Part shown: piece after piece, positions 9,302-62,257 of the stretch | Numbering within the stretch: position 1 is the stretch's first letter | Layout: every line of letters starts with the position of its first letter | DNA from: a virus | Reading direction: 5' to 3' (one strand) | Virus record (IMG/VR): IMGVR_UViG_3300033148_003591 | Span: 37,996 to 101,995 of that record | DNA length: 64,000 nt | Position numbers and translations under genes: made by a program | Notes under the pieces: model-generated | Databases searched by the model: none | What the model was told of the DNA's origin: nothing | The model's input: only the letters and a program-made list of their open reading frames with translations

Positions 9302-10138
9302 TTATTCTCCAATCCTTTCTAAAAAATGGCAAGTGTTACATGGATATGATTTTTTACCATTTTTACTAACCGATTTTCTAAATTTATTAGCCTTTTTATT
9401 ATTAAAAATACTGAATATAGTTTCATTTTTATCTGTTAATTCACCCAAAATAAATTGTTCATGTTCTTTCCAATCACTTCTTAAATTACAGCACGGCATA
9501 ACAGAGCCATTATAGTCAATGTAAATACCATTAGTGGGTATAAAACATGGTGCAATTCTGTGTGGGGGTTTATTTAATGCTTTTAATATTCCTCCTCTAT
9601 TTGAACCAACATTTTTAAAATTTCTATAATATATTAATATTTCCATATCATTAAAATTAGTATCTTTTTGAATAAGTTCACTATTTATTTTATGACTATT
9701 AGGCTTCAATTTTAGTTCGGCAAGCTTATCACCAATCATGTCTAATACTTTTTCTTGTTTATCAGTATATATTTGAATATTTAAACTCCTTAATCCGTTG
9801 TCGTATAATTTAGAAATTTTATTTGCTGTTAAAAAATCGCCATTAGTATTAAAGTGTAATGTTGCATTTGGAAGATTTATTTTTGCATAATTTAATCTAT
9901 TATAAATTATATCATCTGCTAAAGGTTCATTATACCTAGAATATGTTATTATTTTATTATAGTTTATTTCTTTTAAATTAGCGATTATTTTATTATATGT
10001 ACAAGTATTCATAAATATATTTTTAGAATTTCTATCAATTATTGAATTAGGACAATGCCAGCACTGTCTATTACAATAAGAAAATGTTTCTATTTCTATT
10101 AAGTTTACAAGTTTTTTAAATCGTTTCATATTATTCAT
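9302..10138 (-). CDS. Radical SAM protein with SPASM-type C-terminus
   Basis: 278 residues from ATG 10138, which has GGAGA 7 nt upstream and overlaps the end of the fusion gene by 8 nt. The 4Fe-4S/SAM motif CNRQCWHC (CX3CX2C) is at residues 22-29, followed by FNTNGDFL (GGE-like/SAM binding) typical of the barrel. The last third (PCFIPTNGIYIDYNGSVMPC, then CC-N and a final CNTCHF) looks like a SPASM or twitch domain holding extra iron-sulfur clusters, as in peptide- or sugar-modifying enzymes. Directly coupled to the giant fusion and the KdsA gene, so it probably works on the same substrate, which is unknown. Confidence 0.8.
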   Translation of the reverse strand: MNNMKRFKKLVNLIEIETFSYCNRQCWHCPNSIIDRNSKNIFMNTCTYNKIIANLKEINYNKIITYSRYNEPLADDIIYNRLNYAKINLPNATLHFNTNGDFLTANKISKLYDNGLRSLNIQIYTDKQEKVLDMIGDKLAELKLKPNSHKINSELIQKDTNFNDMEILIYYRNFKNVGSNRGGILKALNKPPHRIAPCFIPTNGIYIDYNGSVMPCCNLRSDWKEHEQFILGELTDKNETIFSIFNNKKANKFRKSVSKNGKKSYPCNTCHFLERIGE

Positions 10139-13100
10139 GATTTCTCCAGTTTTTCCCGTATAACTGTTCAAGATACCCTATAACTGGCATTGGTACTGAT
10201 AGATTGCATCCATATAAACTTCTTGGTTTAGTATTTTTTGTCCATTTTAAAATATGAACTTTTATGCCATTTTTTGCATATGTATTTTTTTCTTCATCAT
10301 GTATAAACATTTTTTGCCTTAATAGGTTACTATTAATCTCTGGTGCTGATATAAAAATATCTGTTGTTGTACTTGATAATTTTGATTTTTTAATAGCTTC
10401 AAGGCATGTTCTTTGAAGTAAACAACAATCAGGAACTATATTTATAAAATCTAAAAATACACTTTGTATATTATCACTTACTTTAGGTACAATATTTGTT
10501 GTCTTTTTTTCTACTTCAATTATATCGGCAACTGGATAATTAACCAATTCGTATGGAGTTTGGTATCTAATATGTTTAACACGTTCTAATGTGCTACTAC
10601 CTCTTGAAGTCATTTTCATTTCGCACTCCATATAAAATTTATTTTTTAAATAATGCAAGAATTTTTCAACCAAATGCATATCGGGTTTTCTTGGATGATG
10701 AATATATTTTTTAAGTTTTCTTATACTATTCGCTTTTTTATTTATACCTTTAAAATTATAGAAACACTTACCTACAGTTATTACAGGTTTTCCCCACATC
10801 ATTGCTTGCAACCCAATACCAGAATTTATTGTTAAAACTATATCCGAATATTTAATGCAGTCTTTATAATGATATTTATCTACGATTTTAACATTTTTAC
10901 TTTCAGTCATTAATGTTGTTTCCACCGGATGATTCTTAACTAGAAATTCTACATTTCTCATACTGCATCCTAATTCCTTTATAATGTTTTGAAAATTAGG
11001 CATAGATTTTACCCAATCACTCCATAATAATATAGTTGTATCATTATATACCTGTGACGCAACGAAAACTTTAATTGTATCTTTAGATAAATCTAATTCT
11101 TCATAGAAGGTTTTTTTAGTAACAAATTCAGCATGCTGTTTTTCTAAGCTACATTCATCCTCAGTGAAAGATTTAATATATTCTTTAATTTGTTTCTTTT
11201 CATAGGCTGTTATTTTAACATCCCAATTTTTCTTTTTATATGAATCACTAAAGTATAAAAAGTTGTGCATATCTAAATAAATGCTTCCAGGTAATGCTCC
11301 ACGTTCAAGTACATAAGCTAATTTTCCAGCTTCTTTAAATTCATGCAACAAATCGTATTTCCATTGAAACTTCTTTGCTATTGTATAACTATATGTATTC
11401 CAAAGAATTAATGCTTTATTAGATTTTTTAACTCTTTCTATATTTCTGTCTAATTCAATGTCTAAATATTTGCTTAATTCTACAACATAAGGGTGTCTAA
11501 CTTCAGGACTGATAAATTGTATTTTTTTGATTTGACTAATTTTATCTTGTACTATTTTAAATTTAGGATTATTTTGGTCTGTAAAGAAATTTTTTTCTTT
11601 ATTAGAACATTCTTCAGTAAATAAAGACCCAAATGCTCCTAATAAGGCATACAGGTTTAATTCCGTTGGGTTTTTTTGTAGAATCTTCCATAATTTTACA
11701 GGAACTTTGGTATATTTATCTTTATTATTTTTAGTTCTATCCATCATATTATAATATCTTTGAAATATTGTGTAGTTTGACCAATAAGGACAATGGTCTC
11801 CCATAACCCTTCTGTCGTTTATTGTAGTAAAACCGTCATTTAGCAGTGCGATTTTTTGAGTATTTTCGCAGCATAAAGTATCTTCAAAAGGATACTTTTT
11901 TAATATTTCCGTTCTATTAATTCTAACGCCTTTAATTTTTCTATTCATATGTACATCATACAGGGAAAATAATAATGTAGAAACAGTTGGTTCATTTTTT
12001 AACATACTTGTGTGCATATTATTAACAGCTTCAGGTTTTAAAATGATATCTTCATCACATTGGATAAAGTATGGTGTTTTACACCTAATCATCATTTGAT
12101 TAAATGCGTCTGACATGGGTGCAATATCTTCTATTATGTCTAGTTTAAAATCAACGGTTTGGTTTTTTAAAGCCAATAGACATGCTTGATAATTTTTTTT
12201 CTTTTCAACAGCAATTACAAATACAGTTACATCTGAAGAAATATCTTGTTTTCCCTTATCCCATGCCCGCACTACATTTTTTGTTCTATAATGAATATCT
12301 CTATTCGTCATTCCTTTTTTTGATAAATCTATATCAGTATAAAATTTCGTGCCAGGAAAAGGTTCAAATTTATACCACCCTTGTACAGATAATTTATTTT
12401 TTTTAATAAAATCCAAAGTCATTTGTCTTTCTTCTTCTGTTTCTCCTGGTATATGATGCATAAAAGATGCTCGAACTGGTAACTTAATTGAACGTGCTAT
12501 GTCTATAGTATTTTGATTGTCGGCTACTGTGTTACCTTTGTTTAATATTTTTAGCACCCTATCACTTCCACTTTCAGCACCAAATCTAACTTCGTAATAA
12601 CCCATCTCTTTCATTTTTATAGCCGTTTCTAATGTAAACACACCGGCTCTAACAAAACTTCTTATCTTTAACCTTTTATGCCATCCTCTTGCCATCCACA
12701 TTTCATGAATTTTATTAAAGCGTGGTTTGTTTACGATAAATAAATCATCATAAATGTACAATGTTTTAATTTGAGGATATTTTTTAATTAAGAAATCAAC
12801 TTCTTTTATAAAATATTCAGCACTATGGAATCTTGTATTACCCCAAAAAACTTGTGAGCTACAAAAATTACAAGAAAATGGACACCCTCTTGAAGTGAAA
12901 ATAGGAATAACATCTGTACACCGACCTCGTTCTGGATAATTTAATGTATCAATATTTTCAATGTTTGGTAATTGAATAATTTTTTCGCTTGGGTTATTTT
13001 TTATAATATGATTTAAAGCTTGTTCACCCTCACCTTTTATTATATGTTTAAATGGGTATTTTTCTAAATCTTCCCAAAGCGTACATTGTCCACCAATAAT

Positions 13101-13319
13101 GATAGGAATGTTTTTAATTGATTTTAGAATTTGAATAGCTTCTTGAATACCCCAAGCATTAGAAGATAATCCTATATAGTCACAGTTTTTTAATTCCTTT
13201 GGGTTTCTAATTAATTCAATATCAGCATTACAATTGGTTTTTAGATAACCTATGCTCAATGGATATTCATTGTCAACAGGGTCTTCCCACCCACACTGAT
13301 ACATTTTAATTTTTTTCAT
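10131..13319 (-). CDS. Giant fusion: B12-binding radical SAM, GT2 and capsule-type transferase
   Basis: 1062 residues with several domains in one frame. Residues about 1-125: B12-binding-like Rossmann region (DYIGLSSNAWG, IPIIIGGQCTLW, GEGEQAL), though the cobalamin His motif is not obvious. About 135-335: radical SAM barrel with C146/C150/C153 (RGCPFSCNFC) and RFGAESGSDRVL. About 363-470: GT2-like domain (VTVFVIAVEKKKNYQACL ... IQCDEDIIL, DED at 422-424). About 610-880: capsule-polysaccharide/KpsS-like transferase (LERGALPGSIYLD, FLVKNHPVE, VLTINSGIGLQAMMWGKPV). The end (PVIGYLEQLYGKNW) recalls LicD-type enzymes. Lies directly before a SPASM protein and after KdsA. Likely builds or attaches an unusual sugar; acceptor unknown. 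Confidence 0.8.
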   Translation of the reverse strand: MKKIKMYQCGWEDPVDNEYPLSIGYLKTNCNADIELIRNPKELKNCDYIGLSSNAWGIQEAIQILKSIKNIPIIIGGQCTLWEDLEKYPFKHIIKGEGEQALNHIIKNNPSEKIIQLPNIENIDTLNYPERGRCTDVIPIFTSRGCPFSCNFCSSQVFWGNTRFHSAEYFIKEVDFLIKKYPQIKTLYIYDDLFIVNKPRFNKIHEMWMARGWHKRLKIRSFVRAGVFTLETAIKMKEMGYYEVRFGAESGSDRVLKILNKGNTVADNQNTIDIARSIKLPVRASFMHHIPGETEEERQMTLDFIKKNKLSVQGWYKFEPFPGTKFYTDIDLSKKGMTNRDIHYRTKNVVRAWDKGKQDISSDVTVFVIAVEKKKNYQACLLALKNQTVDFKLDIIEDIAPMSDAFNQMMIRCKTPYFIQCDEDIILKPEAVNNMHTSMLKNEPTVSTLLFSLYDVHMNRKIKGVRINRTEILKKYPFEDTLCCENTQKIALLNDGFTTINDRRVMGDHCPYWSNYTIFQRYYNMMDRTKNNKDKYTKVPVKLWKILQKNPTELNLYALLGAFGSLFTEECSNKEKNFFTDQNNPKFKIVQDKISQIKKIQFISPEVRHPYVVELSKYLDIELDRNIERVKKSNKALILWNTYSYTIAKKFQWKYDLLHEFKEAGKLAYVLERGALPGSIYLDMHNFLYFSDSYKKKNWDVKITAYEKKQIKEYIKSFTEDECSLEKQHAEFVTKKTFYEELDLSKDTIKVFVASQVYNDTTILLWSDWVKSMPNFQNIIKELGCSMRNVEFLVKNHPVETTLMTESKNVKIVDKYHYKDCIKYSDIVLTINSGIGLQAMMWGKPVITVGKCFYNFKGINKKANSIRKLKKYIHHPRKPDMHLVEKFLHYLKNKFYMECEMKMTSRGSSTLERVKHIRYQTPYELVNYPVADIIEVEKKTTNIVPKVSDNIQSVFLDFINIVPDCCLLQRTCLEAIKKSKLSSTTTDIFISAPEINSNLLRQKMFIHDEEKNTYAKNGIKVHILKWTKNTKPRSLYGCNLSVPMPVIGYLEQLYGKNWRNHE

Positions 13320-14122
13320 TACATCCCTTCCATTATTTTTAAAGTTTGTTTAACTACGTTTTCCGCTTCTGAGAAATTAAGAGAATTACTACCGTCACAT
13401 AAAGCTTTTTTTGGTGTTGGGTGAATTTCCATAAATATACCATTAACTCCATATGCTACTGAAGCTCTTGCTAAAGGTAAAATAAATTCTTTATTACCTA
13501 ATGATTTATTTCCACCAGCACTCGGTAACTGAACAGAATGAGTGCAATCAAATACTACAGGGTAATATTGTTTCATTATTGTAAACCCTGTAAAATCTAC
13601 TACTAATCTATGATACCCAAAAGAAGTTCCACGTTCTGTAAGTATAATATTAGTATTATTTTGGCTTTCAATTTTTTTAATTACATGTACTATATCATCT
13701 GGAGCTATAAATTGCCCCTTTTTAATATTAATTATTCTGCCTGTCTTTGCTAACCCTCCAACTAAATCTGTTTGTCTGCATAAGAATGCGGGTATTTGCA
13801 GAATATCTAAAGGTGATTTTTCTACCTCTTTTATTTCTGCTACAGAATGAACATCTGTTAATATTGGCAAATCGTATAAAATTTTTACTTGAGTTAAAAG
13901 TTCTATACCTCTTTTAATGCCCAAACCTCTATAAGCATCGTAAGAGGTTCTATTAGCTTTATCATAACTAGCTTTAAAAATAAACTGACACCCATATTTC
14001 ATTTTTAATTTTTTGACAAATCTTGCAGTTTCAAATAAAATCTTGTAATTTTCTATAGCACAATTTCCTACAATAAAAAATAATTTTGATTTTTTTATTT
14101 TGTCATACAATTTATTTTTCAT
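13319..14122 (-). CDS. kdsA: 3-deoxy-8-phosphooctulonate (Kdo-8-P) synthase
   Basis: 267 residues, near full family length. Condenses phosphoenolpyruvate with arabinose 5-phosphate, the first dedicated step to Kdo. Family motifs in order: GNCAIEN, FKASYDKANR, PILTDVHSV, LQIPAFLCRQTDL, NIKKGQFIAP, ERGTSFGYH, VVFDCTHSVQ, FMEIHPTP. The Cys at residue 21 in GNCAIEN corresponds to the metal-ligand Cys of the metal-dependent class. Start shares 4 nt with the upstream cupin gene and its stop shares 1 nt with the fusion gene, so the three are co-translated. A phage kdsA is rare; related NeuB-like enzymes are the main alternative, but the motifs favour KdsA. Confidence 0.88.
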   Translation of the reverse strand: MKNKLYDKIKKSKLFFIVGNCAIENYKILFETARFVKKLKMKYGCQFIFKASYDKANRTSYDAYRGLGIKRGIELLTQVKILYDLPILTDVHSVAEIKEVEKSPLDILQIPAFLCRQTDLVGGLAKTGRIINIKKGQFIAPDDIVHVIKKIESQNNTNIILTERGTSFGYHRLVVDFTGFTIMKQYYPVVFDCTHSVQLPSAGGNKSLGNKEFILPLARASVAYGVNGIFMEIHPTPKKALCDGSNSLNFSEAENVVKQTLKIMEGM

Positions 14123-14517
14123 AGGTTTAATAATCCTTTATCTTTTAACTCTGGTATAGGTATTTCTGCACCATCAATAATTAACCCACCCTGAATCTGT
14201 CTAATTATATCATCTGGATTTATATCAGTGTCAATTGTATAAGCTATTTCAATTAGCACAGAATTTTCTAAAGCTTTAAATTTATGCACTAATGGTGGAT
14301 GAACTTCAAAAGTTTCATTTATGCCTAATACTTTAGTACCAAGTTCACTTATAATTTCCACTTTACCAGAAACCAATATAAACTTGTTTATTTTTTCTTT
14401 GTGATGATGCACAGAGCAAAAACTATCTCTCTTTAACTGCAATAAATCTATTTCGTTGTGATTATCAAGATGAATTCTTTGTTTAATACCCCAAATTTTA
14501 AAACTATTATTTGACAT
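14119..14517 (-). CDS. Cupin-domain sugar isomerase-like protein
   Basis: 132 residues, one cupin barrel. Metal-binding motif 1 is SVHHHKEKINKFILVSG (His-His-His then Lys/Glu spacing), motif 2 is HPPLVHKFKAL. This is like mannose-6-phosphate-isomerase type cupins and nucleotide-sugar epimerases. Translationally coupled to kdsA (ATGA) and to the basic gene upstream (TAATG), which suggests a step in preparing the sugar, for instance an isomerisation feeding KdsA. Reaction not proven by sequence. Confidence 0.65.
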   Translation of the reverse strand: MSNNSFKIWGIKQRIHLDNHNEIDLLQLKRDSFCSVHHHKEKINKFILVSGKVEIISELGTKVLGINETFEVHPPLVHKFKALENSVLIEIAYTIDTDINPDDIIRQIQGGLIIDGAEIPIPELKDKGLLNL

Positions 14518-28346: not shown

Positions 28347-28586
28347 TCATTCATCAAACCCATCTTTGTCATATATCCATTCACAACATGGTAACAATCT
28401 TCCTTTATTATCTCTTTCTTGTTCATCAGAAAATTCTATAGTTCCAGTTAACTCATTATCTGGTTTAATAATTATTGAATTACAAGAACATCCTCTAGGC
28501 ACGCAATCATCACAGCACGCCCAAATTCCTTTTCCTGGCATGTATACCCACACAGCGATTTTTCCACAATTACATTTTACTTTCAT
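28347..28586 (-). CDS. Cysteine-rich zinc-binding protein
   Basis: 79 residues with nine cysteines, spaced as CNCG, ACCDDC, GCSC and LPCC, which should bind one or two zinc ions. Overlaps the end of the ClpP-like gene upstream by 4 nt. Small zinc-ribbon proteins near phage polymerases are often regulators, but nothing more can be said. Confidence 0.55.
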   Translation of the reverse strand: MKVKCNCGKIAVWVYMPGKGIWACCDDCVPRGCSCNSIIIKPDNELTGTIEFSDEQERDNKGRLLPCCEWIYDKDGFDE

Positions 28587-29146
28587 AATATCTTATCCAC
28601 CACCCCATATTTTAAACATTCTTCAGCATTTAACCAAACTTCACCATTTCTGCATTTCTGTATTAATACTTCTGGAACATTTGTATTATCTTCATAAATT
28701 TTTATCAGTTTGTTATTCAAAGTTTTCATGAATTCAACTCTATCCAATACATAGGGAAAATAATCATTAGCTCCACCAGCCATCGGATGCATCATGTAAT
28801 AAGCGTTCTCTGTTATAAATCGCTTACTACCTACTACTGATATAATAGAACCCATACTACAAGCATTACCGGTGATGATAGTATATACAGGTGTACCAGA
28901 GTTTTTTAATCTTTTAATAGTGTCAACAATAGAAAAACCTTGAGTGCAATATCCACCAGGAGAATTTATTTCAATTGTTACTGGTTTCTTTTTCTTCCGA
29001 AGATGCATAGCTACTAATTTTTTATTTACTAATTCAGCACTTGCATCATCTATATCGTCATATAAATAAATTAACCTATTTTTATTAAGGATTTCATCAT
29101 AATATTTGTCATCATATCTTACTACAGATTTTTTCTTCTTACCCAT
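28583..29146 (-). CDS. ClpP-like serine protease 1
   Basis: 187 residues, the length of a ClpP subunit. Motifs: VTIEINSPGGYCTQGFSI (oxyanion-side Gly-Gly), TGNACSMGSIIS with the catalytic Ser, and YYMMHPMAGGAND with the catalytic His; the last helix ends KYGVVDKIL as in ClpP. Two bases downstream of a second ClpP-like gene. No ClpX/ClpA unfoldase is visible in the window, so it would need the host ATPase or act alone. Expressed with replication genes, not with the head genes, so not a typical prohead protease. Confidence 0.82.
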   Translation of the reverse strand: MGKKKKSVVRYDDKYYDEILNKNRLIYLYDDIDDASAELVNKKLVAMHLRKKKKPVTIEINSPGGYCTQGFSIVDTIKRLKNSGTPVYTIITGNACSMGSIISVVGSKRFITENAYYMMHPMAGGANDYFPYVLDRVEFMKTLNNKLIKIYEDNTNVPEVLIQKCRNGEVWLNAEECLKYGVVDKIL

Positions 29147-29147
29147 G

Positions 29148-29777
29148 TTAACCTCCCATTACACTATCAGCTAAACCTAATCTGACAGCTTCTTTAGGTG
29201 ATAAATAAGTGTCATACATCATTGTTTCCTGTAATTGTTCTCTAGTATATCTTGGGTGTTTTTCTCTAATTCGATTCAAATAAATATCTTCCATAACTTT
29301 ATTAACTTTTTTAGCTTCATCAGCCGATGCTAGAATATCTTTTGTTTGAGGAGAAGTATCTCCAATACCTGAACCATAATGAATTAAAAACTCACAGTGA
29401 GCTGATAAAATACGCTTATTAGCTGCTTGCAATATAATTGTACCCATAGAACGTATTCGACCATATGCTTTAAGTGTTATTGGGCTTTTAATTTGTTTCA
29501 TATAATCAAAAAGAGCCATACCAGCATTCCAATCACCACCGTAACTCATCCAAACAATTGTAATCGGAGCTATTTTTGATTGTTCAAGAATATACAATCC
29601 TTTAAGAGCATTTTGTACAGACCAATCATTAACTTCCCATGATTTTTCTTCATCTATCATTTCTTCATTAGGTTGCCAAGGACAAAAATAAAGAATGCGG
29701 TTTTTAATATCCAAATTTCTAGTATAAAGCATTTCTGTCTCTTCGATATTCATATTTCTTTGGATTCGTTTTTTCAT
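29148..29777 (-). CDS. ClpP-like serine protease 2
   Basis: 209 residues from ATG 29777; AAGGAG lies 10 nt upstream and an in-frame TTG (29783) would be closer to it. Motifs: ITIVWMSYGGDWNAGMAL, GRIRSMGTIIL (catalytic Ser) and CEFLIHYGSG (catalytic His), ending LSPKEAVRLGLAD. More divergent than the neighbour, with a longer N-terminus, so the two may form a hetero-oligomer like ClpP1P2 or cyanobacterial ClpP/ClpR pairs. Confidence 0.78.
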   Translation of the reverse strand: MKKRIQRNMNIEETEMLYTRNLDIKNRILYFCPWQPNEEMIDEEKSWEVNDWSVQNALKGLYILEQSKIAPITIVWMSYGGDWNAGMALFDYMKQIKSPITLKAYGRIRSMGTIILQAANKRILSAHCEFLIHYGSGIGDTSPQTKDILASADEAKKVNKVMEDIYLNRIREKHPRYTREQLQETMMYDTYLSPKEAVRLGLADSVMGG

Positions 29778-29792
29778 TACCAATCATCTCCT

Positions 29793-40128: not shown

Positions 40129-40672
40129 TACTATACCTCCAAATAAACCTATTGGCTGTTTTTCGTTTTCCCAAACAAACTTTAGAAATATTTTGATTAG
40201 CGAATCCTAAAAGGTTTTCTATTTCAACTGCACCCTTCCAACTTCTAATAAAATTACCTTCTAAATCATATTGATTAATTGGTTTATATCTGTCTTTTAT
40301 AGTATTTATAGACATCTCTATAAATTTACAATTTTCAAATATATAATCTCCATTATTATTTTTTCTGTCAATTGATGGTTTTTGCAACAACCAAGCTTTA
40401 TCTCTGAACCAAAGTTCTTTTAATTCTTCTGCGGTGATTAAACATTTTATACCACGCCCACCCCAATCTTTATATCGTTTATCATTTGGATTATTACACC
40501 TTTGCTTAATATGATTAAAAACCACTTTCCAAGGATACTTTTTACGATATTCTTTTCTCAAAAAATTAAAACAAAATTTGCACTGAGAACGTTTTCCGTT
40601 TTTACCTCTTTTATTTGAATAAAACTCATCAAATATTTTCTCTTCACTGCATTTACTACAAATTTTCTTCAT
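40121..40672 (-). CDS. HNH/NUMOD1 homing endonuclease copy 3 with zinc ribbon
   Basis: 183 residues. N-terminal zinc ribbon ICSKCSEEKIFDEFYSNKR ... CKFC is like those of the genes at 3885 and 23308, whereas the rest (DWGGRGIKCLIT ... QKPSIDRKNNNGDYIFENC ... QYDLEGNFIRSWKG ... VCLGKRKTANRFIWR) matches the NUMOD1 copies at 31225 and 32861. So this gene is a combination of two endonuclease types. Overlaps the MazZ-like gene end by 17 nt and the flap exonuclease start by 8 nt. Confidence 0.82.
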   Translation of the reverse strand: MKKICSKCSEEKIFDEFYSNKRGKNGKRSQCKFCFNFLRKEYRKKYPWKVVFNHIKQRCNNPNDKRYKDWGGRGIKCLITAEELKELWFRDKAWLLQKPSIDRKNNNGDYIFENCKFIEMSINTIKDRYKPINQYDLEGNFIRSWKGAVEIENLLGFANQNISKVCLGKRKTANRFIWRYSNG

Positions 40673-41219
40673 TATTATCCTTTATAGTATAATGTTTTGG
40701 GTTCTTATCTTTATGTTTTTCTTTTAATTCTTTAATCATTGGTGTAAATTTATCTATTAGTTTAGAATATCCACCTTTAATCATTCTATCATCATTTAAT
40801 TTTCCGGCTTCCATCGCATCGGCTATAACCGCTAAACACGCTCCAGCTTTATATAAATGATTTAATCCACTATCAGGGTCTATATCTTCTCCCTCAAACC
40901 ATGCGATAAGATGTCTTAATGCAGCATCATAATAAATACTAGCTCTAACTCCTACAGCCCTAAAATTACTTCTTCCATACTTTAAGCACCCTTCTAAAAA
41001 CGCCATAGATACACCCGCAGTAAAGGTTGTTGGACAAAGATGAAATGGTAATTTATTTGACCCTATTATATCTTTAGGATTAGTTAGTTTAGTAGATTTT
41101 ACATCTCTAAAAAAATCACAAGCTATACCAACAAGCATTTTTACTTCTGCTCCTTCACAACGCATATTATCTTTATCTATACATTTTTCACACCAAGGAT
41201 TGATATATTTTCTTTCCAT
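40656..41219 (-). CDS. MazZ/DUF5664-like dATP/dGTP pyrophosphohydrolase
   Basis: 187 residues. The core NPKDIIGSNKLPFHLCPTTF, LEGCLKYGRSNF and YYDAALRHLIAWFEGEDID, with NHLYKAGACLAVIADA, matches the DUF5664 helical hydrolases that include MazZ of Z-genome phages (2-aminoadenine DNA). N-terminal Cys-rich segment CEKC. No PurZ-type gene and no special polymerase are present in the window, so it may simply clean or balance the dNTP pool. Confidence 0.65.
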   Translation of the reverse strand: MERKYINPWCEKCIDKDNMRCEGAEVKMLVGIACDFFRDVKSTKLTNPKDIIGSNKLPFHLCPTTFTAGVSMAFLEGCLKYGRSNFRAVGVRASIYYDAALRHLIAWFEGEDIDPDSGLNHLYKAGACLAVIADAMEAGKLNDDRMIKGGYSKLIDKFTPMIKELKEKHKDKNPKHYTIKDNNEENL

Positions 41220-51324: not shown

Positions 51325-51400
51325 TGGGGTGTCCGAGGGAATTTGAATCCCTAATCTTTAGAGCCACAATCTAATGCTTTACCAATTAAGCTACGGACAC
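51325..51400 (-). tRNA. tRNA-His (GTG anticodon), 3' CCA encoded
   Basis: 76 nt, perfect 7-bp acceptor stem (GTGTCCG/CGGACAC), D stem GCTT/AAGC, anticodon stem TTAGA/TCTAA with anticodon GTG (reads CAC/CAU), T stem AGGGA/TCCCT with loop TTCAAAT, discriminator C73 and encoded CCA. The base before G1 is T on the - strand, so the normal extra G-1 of bacterial tRNA-His is not encoded, although C73 is present. Lies between the early promoter at 51453 and the recombinase gene. Confidence 0.9.
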
Positions 51401-51452: not shown

Positions 51453-51480
51453 AGTATATCACAAAATCACGTTTTGTCAA
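51453..51480 (-). promoter_or_regulatory. Early sigma70-like promoter for tRNA-His and recombinase
   Basis: - strand: CCTTGACA (-35 at 51475-51480), 16-bp spacer, TGA then TATACT (-10 at 51453-51458), then TTAAGTAAGGAG as in the promoter at 25650. It lies inside the last codons of the gene at 51467. After the AAGGAG comes a mini ORF of 8 codons (MYSKLVYI) just before the tRNA. Confidence 0.85.
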
Positions 51481-51913
51481 GGAATTTCTCTAAATATTTC
51501 CATTTTTCTTCATCCGGTAAAATAACTATTTGTTGAAGATGATATTCCCAATTACCAGTATTAATTGTTGGATTTAATTCGTACATACAAAAACTACTAA
51601 CCATTGTCTGTCCAAATTTTTTAAGTTCTTCCATTTGCATTTCTGAAATATCATCCTTTAATTCATTTAAATTATTTCTTATTTTATTTGAGTCACACCA
51701 AATAGAACCATCTGTTATTTTCTGTTTTCCATCACCCCAAATAGCTTTAGCAAATTCATGTGTTGAAACACAAGCGAACCAAATTCCATCTTCTATTATT
51801 TTATTTATAGACCACATCTTCTCTGAAAAACACATATCATTCCAACCTTTTTGTGAGCATCCGTTTAAAATAGCTTTATCTATCATCTTTATTAATATCT
51901 CTGCTTTATTCAT
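51467..51913 (-). CDS. Hypothetical protein of the HEFAKAIWG/WxxHLQQI family
   Basis: 148 residues from ATG 51913 (GGAGA upstream; an in-frame TTG lies 12 nt before it). Shares THEFAKAIWGDG, NWEYHLQQIV and KYLEKFL with the shorter paralogue at 19494. Extra central part contains CFSEKMWS. Its final codons overlap the early promoter at 51453. Function unknown. Confidence 0.6.
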   Translation of the reverse strand: MNKAEILIKMIDKAILNGCSQKGWNDMCFSEKMWSINKIIEDGIWFACVSTHEFAKAIWGDGKQKITDGSIWCDSNKIRNNLNELKDDISEMQMEELKKFGQTMVSSFCMYELNPTINTGNWEYHLQQIVILPDEEKWKYLEKFLDKT

Positions 51914-53102
51914 TATCTTCTCCAATCTTTAAATGAGGAATTATAAATAGGCATAATGATGTACAAATACTTGCAATTATCACATTTGTATTATACCCAA
52001 AATTATCATAAATTATCCCACCAATTGCACTTCCTATTTTACTGGCTAAATTATTAGCTGAAGTAACTAACGCATAAAATAGAGCCTCACTTCCTGTTGG
52101 TAATATTTTCACCATAAAACTCATTACCGCTAAAAACGAAATCCCTTCAAATGCACCGAACAATAAACTATAATAAATAAGAAACCATTTATTAGGAATA
52201 TATAAATAAAATAAATTAGTTATCGCTCCAAAAATTATTGTAAAATATAACATCTTTTTCAATGGAAAATTATGTGCTTTCCAATAATACAATCCATACC
52301 CAACCAACCCAATCACAGTTCCAATAACTCCAACATAACCTAAAAATATTTTACCTATAAATAATTCTTCTCTGCATTTTATCATTAAAGCTGTACCAAA
52401 TCCAGGGCTAAATCTCAGTAAAACCAAAAATGCCAAACCAAGTAAAAAATCCTTGTTCTTCAAATACTTAAACACACTCCACGTAAATTTTTTAACCTCT
52501 TTAATTGGTTGTTCAAAATACTTTGTTTTAAGGTAAATTAAAGCACTTATTGGTATTATTAAGCAGATAGCATAGGCTACCTTATAATTTAGCGGTGTGG
52601 GCAGTGTAGAGGCTAAATATGCACCTAATAGTGATACTACAAGACTGCAAATAGCTAGTGCACTCCACTGCACGGACTGGATTTTGCCCTTTAAATTATG
52701 CTTCCGTTCAAGTATACACATCTGTTTATCATTGGCTACATCTGCCAAAGCAATGCCTATATTAATTAATAATCCGGTAATAATAAGACTGATTAAATTT
52801 AACCCAAAAATAACAATATAAATTATACAAGCTATAATTAGCCAATAAGCAATATACAAATAGTATTTAGATAAATACCCCTTTATGGGTCTATAATCAT
52901 TAAGGTAGCCCCATATAACTTTTGTATACCACGCTAAACCAGTTATTAATCCAATCACCCCTAATGTGGTCGCAGAAAGACCCCATGATTCTCTAAGAAG
53001 GTAATATAAGCATTGGTCTGGTAATCCAGATAATCCTTGATTAGAATAACATATCACAAAAAATAAAAATGTCCAAAATGGAATTTTGTATTCCTTTTTC
53101 AT
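51906..53102 (-). CDS. MFS/BT1-like 12-helix transporter
   Basis: 398 residues with about twelve transmembrane helices and a central basic loop (LKTKYFEQPIKEVKKF). Start helix WTFLFFVICYSNQGLSG, later ALADVANDKQMC and RFSPGFGTALMIKCREEL, and a final Gly-rich pair of helices (SKIGSAIGGIIYDNFG). The layout and the PGFGTA motif resemble BT1/folate-biopterin or PucC-like members of the major facilitator superfamily. A full transporter gene is very rare in phages. Substrate unknown; it shares the operon with a B12-radical SAM protein. Confidence 0.65.
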   Translation of the reverse strand: MKKEYKIPFWTFLFFVICYSNQGLSGLPDQCLYYLLRESWGLSATTLGVIGLITGLAWYTKVIWGYLNDYRPIKGYLSKYYLYIAYWLIIACIIYIVIFGLNLISLIITGLLINIGIALADVANDKQMCILERKHNLKGKIQSVQWSALAICSLVVSLLGAYLASTLPTPLNYKVAYAICLIIPISALIYLKTKYFEQPIKEVKKFTWSVFKYLKNKDFLLGLAFLVLLRFSPGFGTALMIKCREELFIGKIFLGYVGVIGTVIGLVGYGLYYWKAHNFPLKKMLYFTIIFGAITNLFYLYIPNKWFLIYYSLLFGAFEGISFLAVMSFMVKILPTGSEALFYALVTSANNLASKIGSAIGGIIYDNFGYNTNVIIASICTSLCLFIIPHLKIGEDNE

Positions 53103-53103
53103 A

Positions 53104-53871
53104 TCATCTCCTACTCTTTCTTACCATTTGGCTAAATTCGTCAATTATAGTATTGGTATCATTCATAAAGCATTTAAAATCTAAATACTCATGATATACA
53201 GATTTACCTAAAGTTTTATCCAAAATATGATTTACCTGCATCATACATAAACTAAAATTGACTTTCTCGAATGGATGTCCTATAACAAATAAATGAATAT
53301 AATGACCTAATAAATTAATCAATGTACCCTGAAATGGTCTACAATACCACCACATATTACCATTTGCTCGGTCTTTAATAAGTGCTTTTATTTGTAACAT
53401 TAAATTACTCATTAAAATTAAATAATATTTAACATTCTCGTTAGCCGGTAGTTCTAATGATAAACCATTATGTGTATTTGATATCCGATGCCATGCAAAT
53501 CCATGTATTCCATTTATTGTTGGTCGAATAATATCTCCAAATTTTAATTTATATTTTTTCAATTCTTTATTATACCATTCTTTTTTTAAACATGGTCTCT
53601 GTAAATTAATATGAAACTCAGGCTCATCCCTTAATGCATTAATTACAGGTCTATTTAATACAGGTGTTTTTGTATAACCTTTATAACCTCGCTCAGTCAT
53701 AGCCCTATGTTGTGCTTTTAAAGAATCTCTAAACCATATATAATTAGCCGATTCACTAAGTGTATTATTAATATCTGTATTAAGATATTGTTCAAATAAT
53801 GCTCGTGCATCTAATATATTCATGACATAATTTTGATTAATTTTCTTTTGATAAAATTTAGTTATCTTCAT
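53104..53871 (-). CDS. Unknown protein with possible degenerate Fic-like motif
   Basis: 255 residues, helical. The segment LLGHYIHLFVIGHPFEKVNF resembles the Fic/Doc region (helix, then HPF-x-D-G-N-G-R), but Asp-Gly and Gly-Arg are replaced (HPFEKVNFS), so AMP-transferase activity would not be expected. N-terminal LDARALFEQYLN and WFRDSLKAQHRAMTERGYKG are not recognised. Start overlaps the B12-radical SAM gene stop by 4 nt (ATGA), so both are made together. The Fic link is a weak inference. Confidence 0.4.
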   Translation of the reverse strand: MKITKFYQKKINQNYVMNILDARALFEQYLNTDINNTLSESANYIWFRDSLKAQHRAMTERGYKGYTKTPVLNRPVINALRDEPEFHINLQRPCLKKEWYNKELKKYKLKFGDIIRPTINGIHGFAWHRISNTHNGLSLELPANENVKYYLILMSNLMLQIKALIKDRANGNMWWYCRPFQGTLINLLGHYIHLFVIGHPFEKVNFSLCMMQVNHILDKTLGKSVYHEYLDFKCFMNDTNTIIDEFSQMVRKSRR

Positions 53872-55451
53872 TTTGCCTCATATCTTTTTATTTCATTTAA
53901 TAATATTTTATTAGTATCATCTATTATCTTTTTCTTAATATTTATTTTAATTTTATTAATTAATTCATGGCGAGCATTTCTGAAAAAATCAATTGGTTTA
54001 TTATCAAATCTAAAAATTAATTCACGAATTAAATTAATCTGTAATATATTATGTACAACATGTATATCATGCAATATATTATTACCATTATCATTTCTAC
54101 TCATTCTATTGGAGCGTGATTTTAATTTGGCTAAATACATTATTGACCCAACTTCATTTTCTAACGATTTAATTACATTTATAATAGATTGTATTTTTTT
54201 ATTTTTATATGAAACGTCATACAATAATGTCTCACTATTATATCCAATTATTAAATTTTCTTTTAAACATTTATTAAAAAATTGTGTTCCTTTTTGGATT
54301 TTAAGTTGATTTAATGGATAACTCATTGCATCATACAAATCTAAATCGTCTACAAAATTTATAGTTTCCATTACTTCTTCTGGTGTTACAAACGGGTCAA
54401 ACATAATTACACCTATAGAAATTTCTTTCCATATTTTTTTAATACGTTTAATAGCTTCATAATTTTCAATTGGTAATATACCTTTATTATATCGTTTTAA
54501 TTGTGTTTTAGAATTTGTTTCAATACCTAAAAATGGCAAATTAAATCCGGCTTTCTTCATAACATTTAAAACTGTTAAATTAAAATTGTTCTCATCATCA
54601 GACATATTTGATTTAAATACATCATCTGCTCTTAAAGAAAATGCAATATTTATATCATAAGTATTTTTGATAAGTTCATAGCATAATTTAATCATCCTGT
54701 TCTTGGCTATTTTTCCAATTGGTGTTGCTCCTCCTAATACACATGGGTCGGTAATTGATATATCTTTATATCCTAATTGTTTAGCATATTTTAATTCTTG
54801 TAAAAATATATCACTATTTAATAACTCGAATTTATGAAAACGATTTGGGTCTTTAAAACAATAACTACATGCACCCCATCCACATCCTCTTGATGTCCAT
54901 AATAAAATATCTCCTTTATAATCTATGGTTTTATTTAATGATTCCTTATTTACAGGAATAATATTAATCAAATTTGTTTTGACTGATTTATTCATTTGTA
55001 ATTTATTATCATAATAAACTATTCCACGTATTTCTGATATTTTAATTTGATTTTTAATATACTTTATGTAATCTATAATTGTATTTTCTCCTTCACCAAT
55101 AGCCATAATTAAATTATTGTATTTATTTAAAATATTTTCATAACTATTAGATATTAAATTTCCGCCAACAATAATTTTTCTATTTTTTAAATAATCTTTT
55201 AATAAGCGGTGATTTAAAAATTTAAACAATTCATTTTGCGATTCAAGTTGAGCCGAAATGCCTATAAAATCATAATTATTTTTGGATATATGTATTAATA
55301 AATCATCAAATTTTGTATACTGATTGTCAATCAAATCAATTCGGGCATCGGAATAAACAGAACGAATAGCACAGTCTATGCGATTCAATCCCAATGGATA
55401 ACTAAATTGTTGATGTCTTTTTGATGGAAAACTTATTAATAGAATTCTCAC
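53868..55451 (-). CDS. B12-binding radical SAM protein
   Basis: 527 residues, GTG start with AGGAG 6 nt ahead. N-terminal B12-type Rossmann part (RILLISFPSKRHQQFSYPLG ... FIGISAQLESQNE ... KIIVGGNLISNS ... AIGEGENTI). The cluster motif is RGCGWGACSYC (CX4CX2C, a known variant in this group), followed by SITDPCVLGG and LGIETNSKTQLKRYNKG in the barrel. The C-terminal 150 residues are unknown and helical. Possibly methylates or rearranges an unactivated carbon; substrate unknown. Neighbours: transporter and membrane proteins. Confidence 0.78.
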   Translation of the reverse strand: MRILLISFPSKRHQQFSYPLGLNRIDCAIRSVYSDARIDLIDNQYTKFDDLLIHISKNNYDFIGISAQLESQNELFKFLNHRLLKDYLKNRKIIVGGNLISNSYENILNKYNNLIMAIGEGENTIIDYIKYIKNQIKISEIRGIVYYDNKLQMNKSVKTNLINIIPVNKESLNKTIDYKGDILLWTSRGCGWGACSYCFKDPNRFHKFELLNSDIFLQELKYAKQLGYKDISITDPCVLGGATPIGKIAKNRMIKLCYELIKNTYDINIAFSLRADDVFKSNMSDDENNFNLTVLNVMKKAGFNLPFLGIETNSKTQLKRYNKGILPIENYEAIKRIKKIWKEISIGVIMFDPFVTPEEVMETINFVDDLDLYDAMSYPLNQLKIQKGTQFFNKCLKENLIIGYNSETLLYDVSYKNKKIQSIINVIKSLENEVGSIMYLAKLKSRSNRMSRNDNGNNILHDIHVVHNILQINLIRELIFRFDNKPIDFFRNARHELINKIKINIKKKIIDDTNKILLNEIKRYEAK

Positions 55452-55462
55452 TATATCTCCTA

Positions 55463-56017
55463 TTATTTAATTAACCATAATATAAACCCCATACCCAATA
55501 TACCTTCTACTATTTTCCATGAATCTAAAATATAAGTCTTTGCTATTTTATTGAATACTCTTAATTGTAGATATTTTGCAAATGGGAATACTACAAATCC
55601 CAACAAAGCAATAGTTAAATATACAATAGGACATTTATTAGGGTGTAATATCATGTACGGAAATAAATAATAACTCATACTTACAAATCCTAAATAAACA
55701 TATCTTTCTTTAACAGGTGTAACATTCGGATAAGTTTTTAAATTCAATTTAACTCTGGCGATATAATTACCATTAATGTCTCCACAGGTTTCTCCGTATC
55801 CTAGTGCGCTTTCTAATGTTGTTAAAACAACTACCACAAACATAGGATTAATATTAAACACTGATTGTTCTGTAAACCATAAACAATATAACCCCACAAT
55901 CATAAACGCTGATAAGAACGCTCTAAAATATCCATGTACCAAGTTAGGTACACTATACCCCCTCCACATCCAAATTAATCCACATATAATTGAAAATAAT
56001 AATAATTTAATAATCAT
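55463..56017 (-). CDS. Multi-helix membrane protein
   Basis: 184 residues, about five transmembrane helices (LLLFSIICGLIWMWRGY, YFRAFLSAFMIVGLYCLW, FVVVVLTTLESALGYG, YLTIALLGFVVFPFA and GILGMGFILWLI) and short loops. A GYGETCGDINGNY loop is notable but not assigned. Probably part of the same membrane-associated module as the transporter and B12-radical SAM protein. Confidence 0.55.
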   Translation of the reverse strand: MIIKLLLFSIICGLIWMWRGYSVPNLVHGYFRAFLSAFMIVGLYCLWFTEQSVFNINPMFVVVVLTTLESALGYGETCGDINGNYIARVKLNLKTYPNVTPVKERYVYLGFVSMSYYLFPYMILHPNKCPIVYLTIALLGFVVFPFAKYLQLRVFNKIAKTYILDSWKIVEGILGMGFILWLIK

Positions 56018-56026
56018 AAATTCTCC

Positions 56027-56104
56027 TTAATTAAAAATTTCCGGTATAAAAATTACTACAAACAATAAACCAAAACATATGATAAGCATTATTGTTTCTA
56101 CCAT
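56027..56104 (-). CDS. 25-residue membrane peptide
   Basis: Encodes a single hydrophobic helix (ETIMLIICFGLLFVVIF), with a strong GGAGG 8 nt before ATG 56104. Very short, but clear site and position in the cluster support it. Confidence 0.4.
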   Translation of the reverse strand: MVETIMLIICFGLLFVVIFIPEIFN

Positions 56105-56119
56105 ATATATTCCTCCATT

Positions 56120-56260
56120 TTAAATATCATCAATTTCTTTTTGTGATTGACGTTTATTTTTATTACGGTTATATTTCTTCTTACTTTTCTTAATTTTTTC
56201 CACTGGATTTATAGTCCAAGTCTTTCTTACTTTTTTATTAAAATCATAATTAGTGGTCAT
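56120..56260 (-). CDS. Small basic hypothetical protein
   Basis: 46 residues from ATG 56260, overlapping the upstream stop by 4 nt. Lys/Asn-rich (KKSKKKYNRNKNKRQ). Possibly disordered and nucleic-acid or membrane-surface binding. Unknown. Confidence 0.5.
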   Translation of the reverse strand: MTTNYDFNKKVRKTWTINPVEKIKKSKKKYNRNKNKRQSQKEIDDI

Positions 56261-56694
56261 AATGCTCTTCCAATAATAATCAAATAAGTTCCTGTTAAAA
56301 TAAACGCCCAATAATCAATAGGAACACCTAAAAACCATTTCTTATGCCAACGAACCTTTTGTTTAAAAAATTTCTTTATATCATAATAAGGATTAACAAC
56401 AAACCATAAAAAATCTTCTACAATTAAATAATTTAAAAGTGCTCCTATACATATTAATTCCTTACCAAGTGTCCAAGCATTAAATAAGAAATATCCGTGA
56501 AATACTAAACAAAATATTAACACCATAAATGTGTGATATCCAGTAATGCATTTTCCATTAAAAACTTTTTTATAAGGAATAGATATACGCCAGGTAGGAA
56601 GATTCTTAGCCCATCCACCTGTCTCTCCTTCAATTTCTGATTCAAAAAGTGCATGAAGAATTGCTAATACAAATAAATATATGATATATTTCAT
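56257..56694 (-). CDS. Conserved-looking membrane protein
   Basis: 145 residues, four hydrophobic segments, with ILHALFESEIEGETGGWAKN (charged residues inside a helix-loop), IVEDFLWFVVNPYYDIKKFF and VRWHKKWFLGVPIDYW. The conserved His, Glu and Asp-Trp pattern suggests a membrane enzyme or metal site, but the family is not recognised. Part of the 51.5-58 kb cluster. Confidence 0.55.
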   Translation of the reverse strand: MKYIIYLFVLAILHALFESEIEGETGGWAKNLPTWRISIPYKKVFNGKCITGYHTFMVLIFCLVFHGYFLFNAWTLGKELICIGALLNYLIVEDFLWFVVNPYYDIKKFFKQKVRWHKKWFLGVPIDYWAFILTGTYLIIIGRAL

Positions 56695-56695
56695 A

Positions 56696-56914
56696 CTATC
56701 TATTCCTTTTAATTTTGTTTTTTCGTTCTTCTATATAATCAGATAAATTTAAACACAATTCAATACCTCCAATATAAATAAATAGACACCCAAAACTCAT
56801 ATTAAATATTAAAGGAAAGGGTATAGGTTCACTTGCCCCATATTTAATAAGTACACTACTTAATAATACTGCACCTACAATTAGACAGCATAAACTTTCT
56901 TTTACATTAAACAT
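56696..56914 (-). CDS. Small membrane protein
   Basis: 72 residues with two hydrophobic helices (CCLIVGAVLLSSVLIK and LIFNMSFGCLFIYIGGI) and a basic C-terminal tail. One base upstream of the next gene. Unknown. Confidence 0.5.
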   Translation of the reverse strand: MFNVKESLCCLIVGAVLLSSVLIKYGASEPIPFPLIFNMSFGCLFIYIGGIELCLNLSDYIEERKNKIKRNR

Positions 56915-56926
56915 AATTAAAACTCC

Positions 56927-57208
56927 TTATAATTCATCTATATTTTCAAGTAACCAATCATAAGTGTCACATTTTGCTTTATCAATTTGATTATCTGGAA
57001 AATCTCCACCATAATCTTCAAGTAATTCATCAAGTCTATCTTTAGTATCTCCATATGTCCAAAGGTTTTTAAGAAATCTTTCTAATATTCTAACTTCTGC
57101 ATCTATTATTTTCCAATTCTCATCACCAAAATTGGAATATTCAGGGAGTTTTTTCCGTTCCGCATATAACTCTTTAATTTTCTTTTTTACTTGTGTATTA
57201 GTTCTCAT
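56927..57208 (-). CDS. Hypothetical acidic helical protein
   Basis: 93 residues, helical, with GDENWKIIDAEVRILERFLK and an acidic tail (DYGGDFPDNQ). GGAGG site. Unknown. Confidence 0.5.
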   Translation of the reverse strand: MRTNTQVKKKIKELYAERKKLPEYSNFGDENWKIIDAEVRILERFLKNLWTYGDTKDRLDELLEDYGGDFPDNQIDKAKCDTYDWLLENIDEL

Positions 57209-57228
57209 TGTCTCCTCCTATTTAATTA

Positions 57229-57876
57229 TCATAATTCAACACTAAAATAAAGAAGTCCTCTATCCTCTCCTTTATATCCTTTTCCTCCTCCTAATCCAAT
57301 TGAAGAATTTGGTAAATACTTCCAACTTGGCTTATAAGAAAATCCTAAATAACCACCCCTATTAGTTCCTATAACTTCACTCCTTATCTGCCATAATTTA
57401 GCGTATCTAATAGCTAATCCAGCTTCTAAACCAATATTATCTATACCAGAACCAACACCCTCAACAAAAAGTAAATGACTCATGAACCCATACGGCTTTA
57501 ATTTCTTACGTAATTCCTTAATATCCTCTACTTTAATAGGCTTTCCTAATACTCCTGTTCGCCAATCAGCATAATGTAAAAGACTGGAATTTTTAGGTTT
57601 TCTTAAAGCAGGGTCTTCATTTTTTGCTAATTCTTTCGGGTTTAAACGTAATGTAAACTCCTGTTCATAATTAAATAAATCTTTTCCAATTTCTACAGGC
57701 GTATTTTTAATACCTTTCCAATAAAATATACCAGCAACTAACGATAATATAATTACTATTGTTACCAATCCTTTCGGGTCTAATAAACCCATTCTTATCC
57801 ATGTTTGACACCAAGCACCTAAACCCCATTTGTTCCAAGATTTAGTAAATTCTTTTTTATCAAATTTAAGTATCAT
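57229..57876 (-). CDS. Membrane-anchored hypothetical protein
   Basis: 215 residues. Residues about 37-54 (GLVTIVIILSLVAGIFYW) cross the membrane; the C-terminal domain is Gly/Arg-rich with beta character (GLEAGLAIRYAKLWQ, GYLGFSYKPSWKYL, SIGLGGGKGYKG). Might be a periplasmic or outer-envelope part. No family recognised. Confidence 0.5.
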   Translation of the reverse strand: MILKFDKKEFTKSWNKWGLGAWCQTWIRMGLLDPKGLVTIVIILSLVAGIFYWKGIKNTPVEIGKDLFNYEQEFTLRLNPKELAKNEDPALRKPKNSSLLHYADWRTGVLGKPIKVEDIKELRKKLKPYGFMSHLLFVEGVGSGIDNIGLEAGLAIRYAKLWQIRSEVIGTNRGGYLGFSYKPSWKYLPNSSIGLGGGKGYKGEDRGLLYFSVEL

Positions 57877-61630: not shown

Positions 61631-62257
61631 TTAATAACTCAGATAAACACATCTTCCGCTTGATAATTCAAAATAATTGTCATTATTTAATAAATCACTT
61701 GCAAACGCTTCATAATCAAAATACTTTTCTACACTTTTGAAATTTTCAATAAAGTTTTCCGCTTCTTCTATTCCTAATTTTTCGGCTGTATCAAAAACCC
61801 CTCCTAATATACCCCTATCCCGATACGACAAATAATATTCATCAAATACCTCGTCAATCTCTTCGTTAGTTAATCCTATTTCATCTTGAATATATTGTCT
61901 TTCTTCTTGTATTACTTCCTCAAATAGTTTTTGATTTTCTTCTGATTCCAGCTTTTTAAAAATCGGCTCAATACCTTCAAGGATATATAAGCCTTGTTTA
62001 TATCTTACAGAACCCTTTGTTATTCCATGTCCTAAAGTATTTAACTGTTTATCCGCTTCAACTAATAACATTAATTCTTCTTTTAATAATACAGATTTTA
62101 TATCTTTCGGCAATTCTAAACTCCTACTAAAACAAGCACCTAATAAATGGATTCCTCCAAAATAATGTCCGCATTCAAATTTAGGTCTCTCAATATAATT
62201 GACAACATCTCTATCGTCACTATTTAATTCTTTAAAAATAAATAATGTTTTACCCAT
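61631..62257 (-). CDS. Possible ArdA-like antirestriction protein
   Basis: 208 residues, acidic. The end YFDYEAFASDLLNNDNYFEL resembles the C-terminal signature of ArdA (YFDYEA-F/Y-x-x-DL), which mimics DNA to block type I restriction enzymes. The N-terminal CFSRSLELP part does not match the usual ArdA start, so the link is tentative. Promoter at 62302 lies directly upstream. Confidence 0.4.
   Translation of the reverse strand: MGKTLFIFKELNSDDRDVVNYIERPKFECGHYFGGIHLLGACFSRSLELPKDIKSVLLKEELMLLVEADKQLNTLGHGITKGSVRYKQGLYILEGIEPIFKKLESEENQKLFEEVIQEERQYIQDEIGLTNEEIDEVFDEYYLSYRDRGILGGVFDTAEKLGIEEAENFIENFKSVEKYFDYEAFASDLLNNDNYFELSSGRCVYLSY

Follow-up and report, generated by a model that had tools for sequence, protein, structure and literature searches.

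An OxsB-like cobalamin-dependent radical SAM enzyme and a conserved BT1-family transporter in a probable cargo stretch of a tailed phage

Introduction

OxsB is the nucleotide ring-contraction enzyme in the biosynthesis of oxetanocin A, an antibiotic nucleoside (PDB 5UL2-5UL4), and has a homologue in AlsB (also AlbB). Among transporters, the BT1 family (PF03092) has bacterial members. In PMC13331322, class 1 of the cobalamin-dependent radical SAM enzymes is described as combining a Rossmann B12 domain, a radical SAM domain bearing three cluster cysteines and a C-terminal helical domain, and N186 of OxsB as coordinating cobalt via waters. For viruses, PMC9723712 reports 15 radical SAM enzymes in one huge virus, and BFVD contains B12-binding radical SAM proteins from uncultured Caudovirales phages. 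Searches of the PMC literature returned no article joining OxsB with phage and none on a phage cobalamin-dependent radical SAM enzyme as an auxiliary metabolic gene. The sole match for a phage BT1 family transporter concerns Toxoplasma, the sole match for phage and oxetanocin nucleoside analog concerns S-2L, and folate-biopterin is unnamed among the matches listed on the transporter question.

Results

Genome setting and gene layout

The DNA analysed, hereafter the window, is a stretch of 64,000 bases (37996-101995) from a virus record of 101,995 bases (102 kb). The source is a tailed phage, since a tail tape-measure protein and tail proteins are encoded in the record. The locus at 51906-57876 belongs to an extended series of minus-strand genes, in which a clamp-loader-like gene precedes it and a primase-like gene follows downstream, and consists of the following features, whose coordinates and overlaps agree with those of the initial annotation:

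51906..53102, minus strand: BT1/MFS-family transporter, 398 aa (Pfam BT1 E 7.6e-24)
53104..53871, minus strand: p255, orphan protein, 255 aa (start overlaps the radical SAM stop, ATGA)
53868..55451, minus strand: predicted cobalamin-binding radical SAM enzyme, 527 aa, GTG start, CX4CX2C, OxsB-like fold (Pfam B12-binding and Radical_SAM; OxsB match)
55463..56017, minus strand: p184, membrane protein, three hydrophobic segments (hydropathy; homologue in L006, 45%)
56027..56104, minus strand: 25-aa hydrophobic ORF (read from the sequence; GGAGG upstream)
56257..56694, minus strand: p145, membrane protein, three hydrophobic segments (hydropathy)
56696..56914, minus strand: p72, membrane protein, two hydrophobic segments (hydropathy)
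56927..57208, minus strand: p93, without hydrophobic segment (hydropathy)
57229..57876, minus strand: p215, one N-terminal hydrophobic segment (homologues in L006, L007 and L056, 33-47%)

Four to six membrane proteins had been proposed, and hydropathy identified p184, p145, p72 and p215 as such, to which the 25-aa ORF can be added. The coupling of p255 to the enzyme was confirmed in the sequence, where the stop of the radical SAM gene and the start of p255 overlap as ATGA; a single base separates the p255 stop from the transporter ATG, and a GGAG-like ribosome-binding site precedes most starts of the stretch. Dense packing of this kind is general along the minus strand of the window and not peculiar to 51906-57876. 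Terminators were not in excess (one found vs 1.5 expected), and the repeats flanking the enzyme/p255 cassette were short or diverged pairs only, none of which was taken as significant.

Several other features of the window were recorded. A near-consensus promoter-like site (11/12, extended TG) at 51453-51480 lies just upstream of a tRNA-His gene (51325-51400). The gene group at 9302-14517 encodes a SPASM radical SAM protein, a 1062-aa fusion of radical SAM and Capsule_synth, a DAHP-synthase family protein (the family that includes KDO8P synthase) and a MannoseP_isomer protein, and suggests phage-encoded surface-sugar work. Two ClpP-family proteins are encoded by adjacent genes at 28583-29783, and 61631-62257 gave a weak match, below cut-off, to the antirestriction protein ArdA.

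A BT1-family transporter under strong constraint

The assignment of the 398-residue protein as an MFS/BT1-like transporter held, with matches over the Pfam cut-offs for BT1 (84.7 bits vs 22, residues 22-370) and MFS_1 (E 1.1e-11). BT1 was likewise over cut-off in all three phage records tested, i.e. the window and the related contigs L006 and L007. Of 14 control genomes, 5 also gave BT1 matches over the cut-off, and the match therefore says little on substrate. Of the 12 helices claimed, hydropathy recovered 8 peaks in strict and 10 in lenient mode, the figure of 12 being taken from the BT1/MFS family. A folate/pterin, cobalamin or tetrapyrrole substrate, suggested at the outset, found no support: the transporter differs from the folate/biopterin type in scoring 51.5 bits with TIGR00788, far below the curated cut-off of 216.4, the PucC model (PUCC) gave 18.5 bits vs 21, and the BchE model gave 53.5 bits vs 481 on the enzyme, for which OxsB is the nearest solved relative. 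No sequence match to the transporter was found in the PDB at E 1. Its best bacterial relatives at E 1e-20 were just 26% and 28% identical in two of the three phyla sampled, with none in the third (247, 239 and 249 genomes, respectively).

Three related viral contigs, L006, L007 and L056, were found via the transporter, which is 80-84% identical among the window, L006 and L007, with 83-84% between the window copy and each of the other two, and about 55% identical for L056. In the first three, four-fold third positions agree at 0.38-0.48 vs 0.30-0.35 by chance. With such protein identity kept despite near-chance four-fold sites, the transporter genes are old and the protein is under purifying selection. 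Protein identity is only 35-50% in the corresponding pairs for clamp loader, primase, p184 and p215. The only other tested pair as constrained as the transporter was that of window 40656-41219 (82%), whose product is presumably DUF5664-like; three more were at 53-55%. In L007 (10001-11289) the transporter is split: the loop that follows residue 74 is longer by about 90 bases, which gives two ORFs that overlap by ATGA. A run of seven A precedes this overlap, and the two ORFs could be joined by reinitiation or by a -1 shift.

The radical SAM enzyme compared to OxsB and its relatives

Both the B12-binding and the Radical_SAM domain of the 527-residue protein were over the Pfam cut-off, in line with its earlier description as a B12-radical SAM enzyme. 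Together with C190, C195 and C198, predicted helices at 418-526 and a match to OxsB over residues 1-527, these domains correspond to the class 1 definition, and on sequence and model the enzyme is assigned to class 1, with cofactor binding predicted. OxsB was the best PDB match by phmmer (E 2.7e-33, 118.6 bits), the next chain reaching only E 6.8e-5 and 25 bits. The AlphaFold model had a mean pLDDT of 75.8, with values below 50 in most of 162-211, the region that holds the cluster cysteines. OxsB was again the top match of this model in Foldseek (E 3.9e-31; CysS 1.2e-14) and in VIA-align (Z 28.6, 514 residues, rmsd 3.0; CysS next at Z 23.0). CysS, MgmA, TsrM and TokK all fell well below OxsB in fold, and among these only MgmA (9ccb) matched by sequence. 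As the alignment behind the model consisted of 15 OxsB/AlsB-like or near relatives and favours an OxsB fold, the fold result depends on the relatives chosen, whereas the sequence result is independent of them.

The phage enzyme and OxsB share cobalamin, radical SAM and C-terminal helical domains in the same order, with 28% identity over 327 columns. The CX4CX2C spacing was shared with OxsB only, among 29 rows (the L048 row was not parsed), and Q68 aligns with OxsB N186. The phage enzyme differs in being without the N-terminal domain of OxsB/AlsB and in having D235-P-C in the radical SAM domain where 20 of 20 OxsB/AlsB clade rows have D-E-E. Both trees left it outside this clade, which had support of 98/95 and 90/81, and gave it a long branch. 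Three placements were compared by AU tests and none was rejected: p was 0.084 for a grouping with OxsB alone, 0.26 for a position inside the clade and 0.10 for a grouping with the Sphingobium/Sphingomonas pair. Of 86 clade-conserved residues the enzyme keeps 42, near the outsider L048 (39) and fewer than L008 (49). With clade-conserved residues missing and the trees leaving the enzyme outside the clade, ring contraction is no more than a possible activity.

Plasmids searched by tblastn yielded enzyme relatives in seven records (22-27% identity), and four of these loci were examined. In three of them the relative lies near genes for SurE and NUDIX proteins, or near another radical SAM gene accompanied by a NUDIX or diphosphatase gene and an MFS gene. 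This neighbourhood is nucleotide-like and the phage has no such setting: none of the genes next to its enzyme was recognised as a phosphohydrolase, SurE or NUDIX gene or as another radical SAM gene. Strong matches were few in sampled genomes as well (1/198 at E 1e-20; 1/395 and 5/299 at E 1e-16).

The gene set had been thought undescribed in phages. For three of its proteins this stands, as neither the transporter, the enzyme nor p255 had a tblastn match in 50,697 deposited phage records; the class of B12-radical SAM enzymes as such does occur in phages. The BFVD proteins are of the same kind, but their query-based TM-scores (0.50-0.62) and their identities (12-14%) lie below those of the OxsB match (0.83, 21%). 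An OxsB fragment had no tblastn match in phages, nor the transporter in plasmids. Nothing emerged when viral contigs were scanned with the enzyme, with p255, with the enzyme and OxsB together, or with p184, and a further scan with the transporter, using poor patterns, returned the L006 contig again and nothing else. When the enzyme was combined with its plasmid relatives, one contig was found, IMG/VR contig L012. It carries an OxsB/AlsB-like gene amid genes resembling a bacterial biosynthetic cluster and is probably not a true virus; we take its ORFs to be actinomycete-like.

The orphan protein p255

As already noted in the initial annotation, p255 has no known family, with no match at E 1 in Pfam or NCBIfam. 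There was also no tblastn match at E 1 in plasmids or the phage records and no PDB match at E 10. Two very weak PHROGs lines (E 0.06 and 0.22) were taken as chance, and the structural model was unusable (pLDDT 33.5). A role as an OxsA-like HD hydrolase was rejected, the HD dipeptide being absent from the sequence in addition to the lack of a Pfam match. That p255 is a real gene rests on its open length in DNA of 27% GC, the ATGA coupling and its position.

A cargo site between p215 and the transporter

Gene-by-gene tblastn with window proteins covered 17-21 kb of each related contig, the contigs being probably fragments. Counting the window, the transporter and p215 were found in all four loci and p184 in two (window and L006), while the enzyme, p255, p145, p72, p93 and the downstream p152 were present in the window only. 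All four loci share one order, in which p215 is followed by 2.5-4.1 kb of other genes and these by the transporter. Since this order is the same while the intervening genes differ, the interval is, as judged from these comparisons, a putative cargo site between two kept genes, with the conserved p215 as its upstream marker. The two-gene cassette of enzyme and p255 occupies it here and is absent from the three related loci.

Searches beyond the loci (Radical_SAM, BT1, transporter) covered the 20-kb L006 and 90-kb L007 records, the 42-kb L056 record being compared at its locus only; no Radical_SAM domain was over cut-off in the former two. An enzyme copy may be present elsewhere in the related contigs, outside the 17-21 kb compared. 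The enzyme gene has a GC content of 0.235, the lowest among 58 genes of at least 120 aa (z -2.0), and looks like later cargo. Its codon usage is not unusual and did not mark it as foreign, so late arrival is argued from GC and absence in kin.

Discussion

We consider it probable, if well short of certain, that 51906-57876 forms a variable cargo region in a tailed-phage genome and not one pathway. The initial annotation had treated the genes as one operon and offered metabolite import or export as one reading. In the rival reading of a single module, the enzyme and p255 would make or alter a metabolite moved by the transporter, assisted by the small membrane proteins. The tight packing, the ATGA overlap, the one-base gap and the shared strand fit such a module, as does an MFS gene within about 5 kb of the enzyme relative in three of the four plasmid loci. 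Dense packing is, however, the rule along this strand, the plasmid-locus MFS proteins are no recognisable relatives of the transporter (no tblastn match at E 0.01), and three related loci keep the transporter without enzyme or p255, which makes a single module unlikely. Scattered, unrelated homologues had been named beforehand as evidence against it, and in part this is what was found: the transporter persists without the cassette and the p184 and p215 homologues stand apart among other genes, although the family call on the transporter was upheld.

What the enzyme does is a separate matter, and an ordinary cobalamin-dependent radical SAM methyltransferase, compatible with a cargo site, is a serious candidate that stops somewhat short of being probable. 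The OxsB match would then reflect the few solved structures; no reaction is commoner in this class than methylation (PMC11659888), and both the unplaced position in the trees and the residue count near that of an outsider agree with it. The gap in fold between OxsB and CysS, MgmA, TsrM and TokK, of which MgmA alone matches by sequence, and the scarcity of strong matches in whole genomes speak against it. We regard as quite improbable the more specific proposal that an OxsB-type enzyme rearranges a deoxynucleotide in infection with p255 as an OxsA/AlsA-like partner, the product marking phage DNA or poisoning competing replication and the transporter moving precursor or product. Least likely of all is a role of the enzyme in anti-phage or inter-phage defence, raised by a weak match to the PADLOC candidate PDC-M51A (E 4e-10); PDC-M51A is fitted slightly better by another radical SAM protein of this phage, the one of 1062 aa, and the match is therefore generic.

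Under the preferred reading of variable cargo, the transporter would be made in the infected cell and placed in the host inner membrane, where it would move one small solute by secondary transport, and the need of the phage would keep the protein nearly unchanged. The enzyme would bind cobalamin and a [4Fe-4S] cluster, cleave SAM to the 5'-deoxyadenosyl radical and rearrange or methylate a small substrate that may be nucleotide-like, while p255 would act as its translationally coupled partner; the neighbouring transporter may import a precursor or export a product. Of most interest are a strongly kept phage transporter and a cobalamin radical enzyme of predicted OxsB fold with an orphan partner. 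With a cobalamin radical enzyme nearest OxsB in a phage, radical chemistry on nucleotides by phages becomes testable. This phage lineage holds the transporter under tighter constraint than its replication proteins, which implies a testable dependence of infection on the movement of one particular solute.
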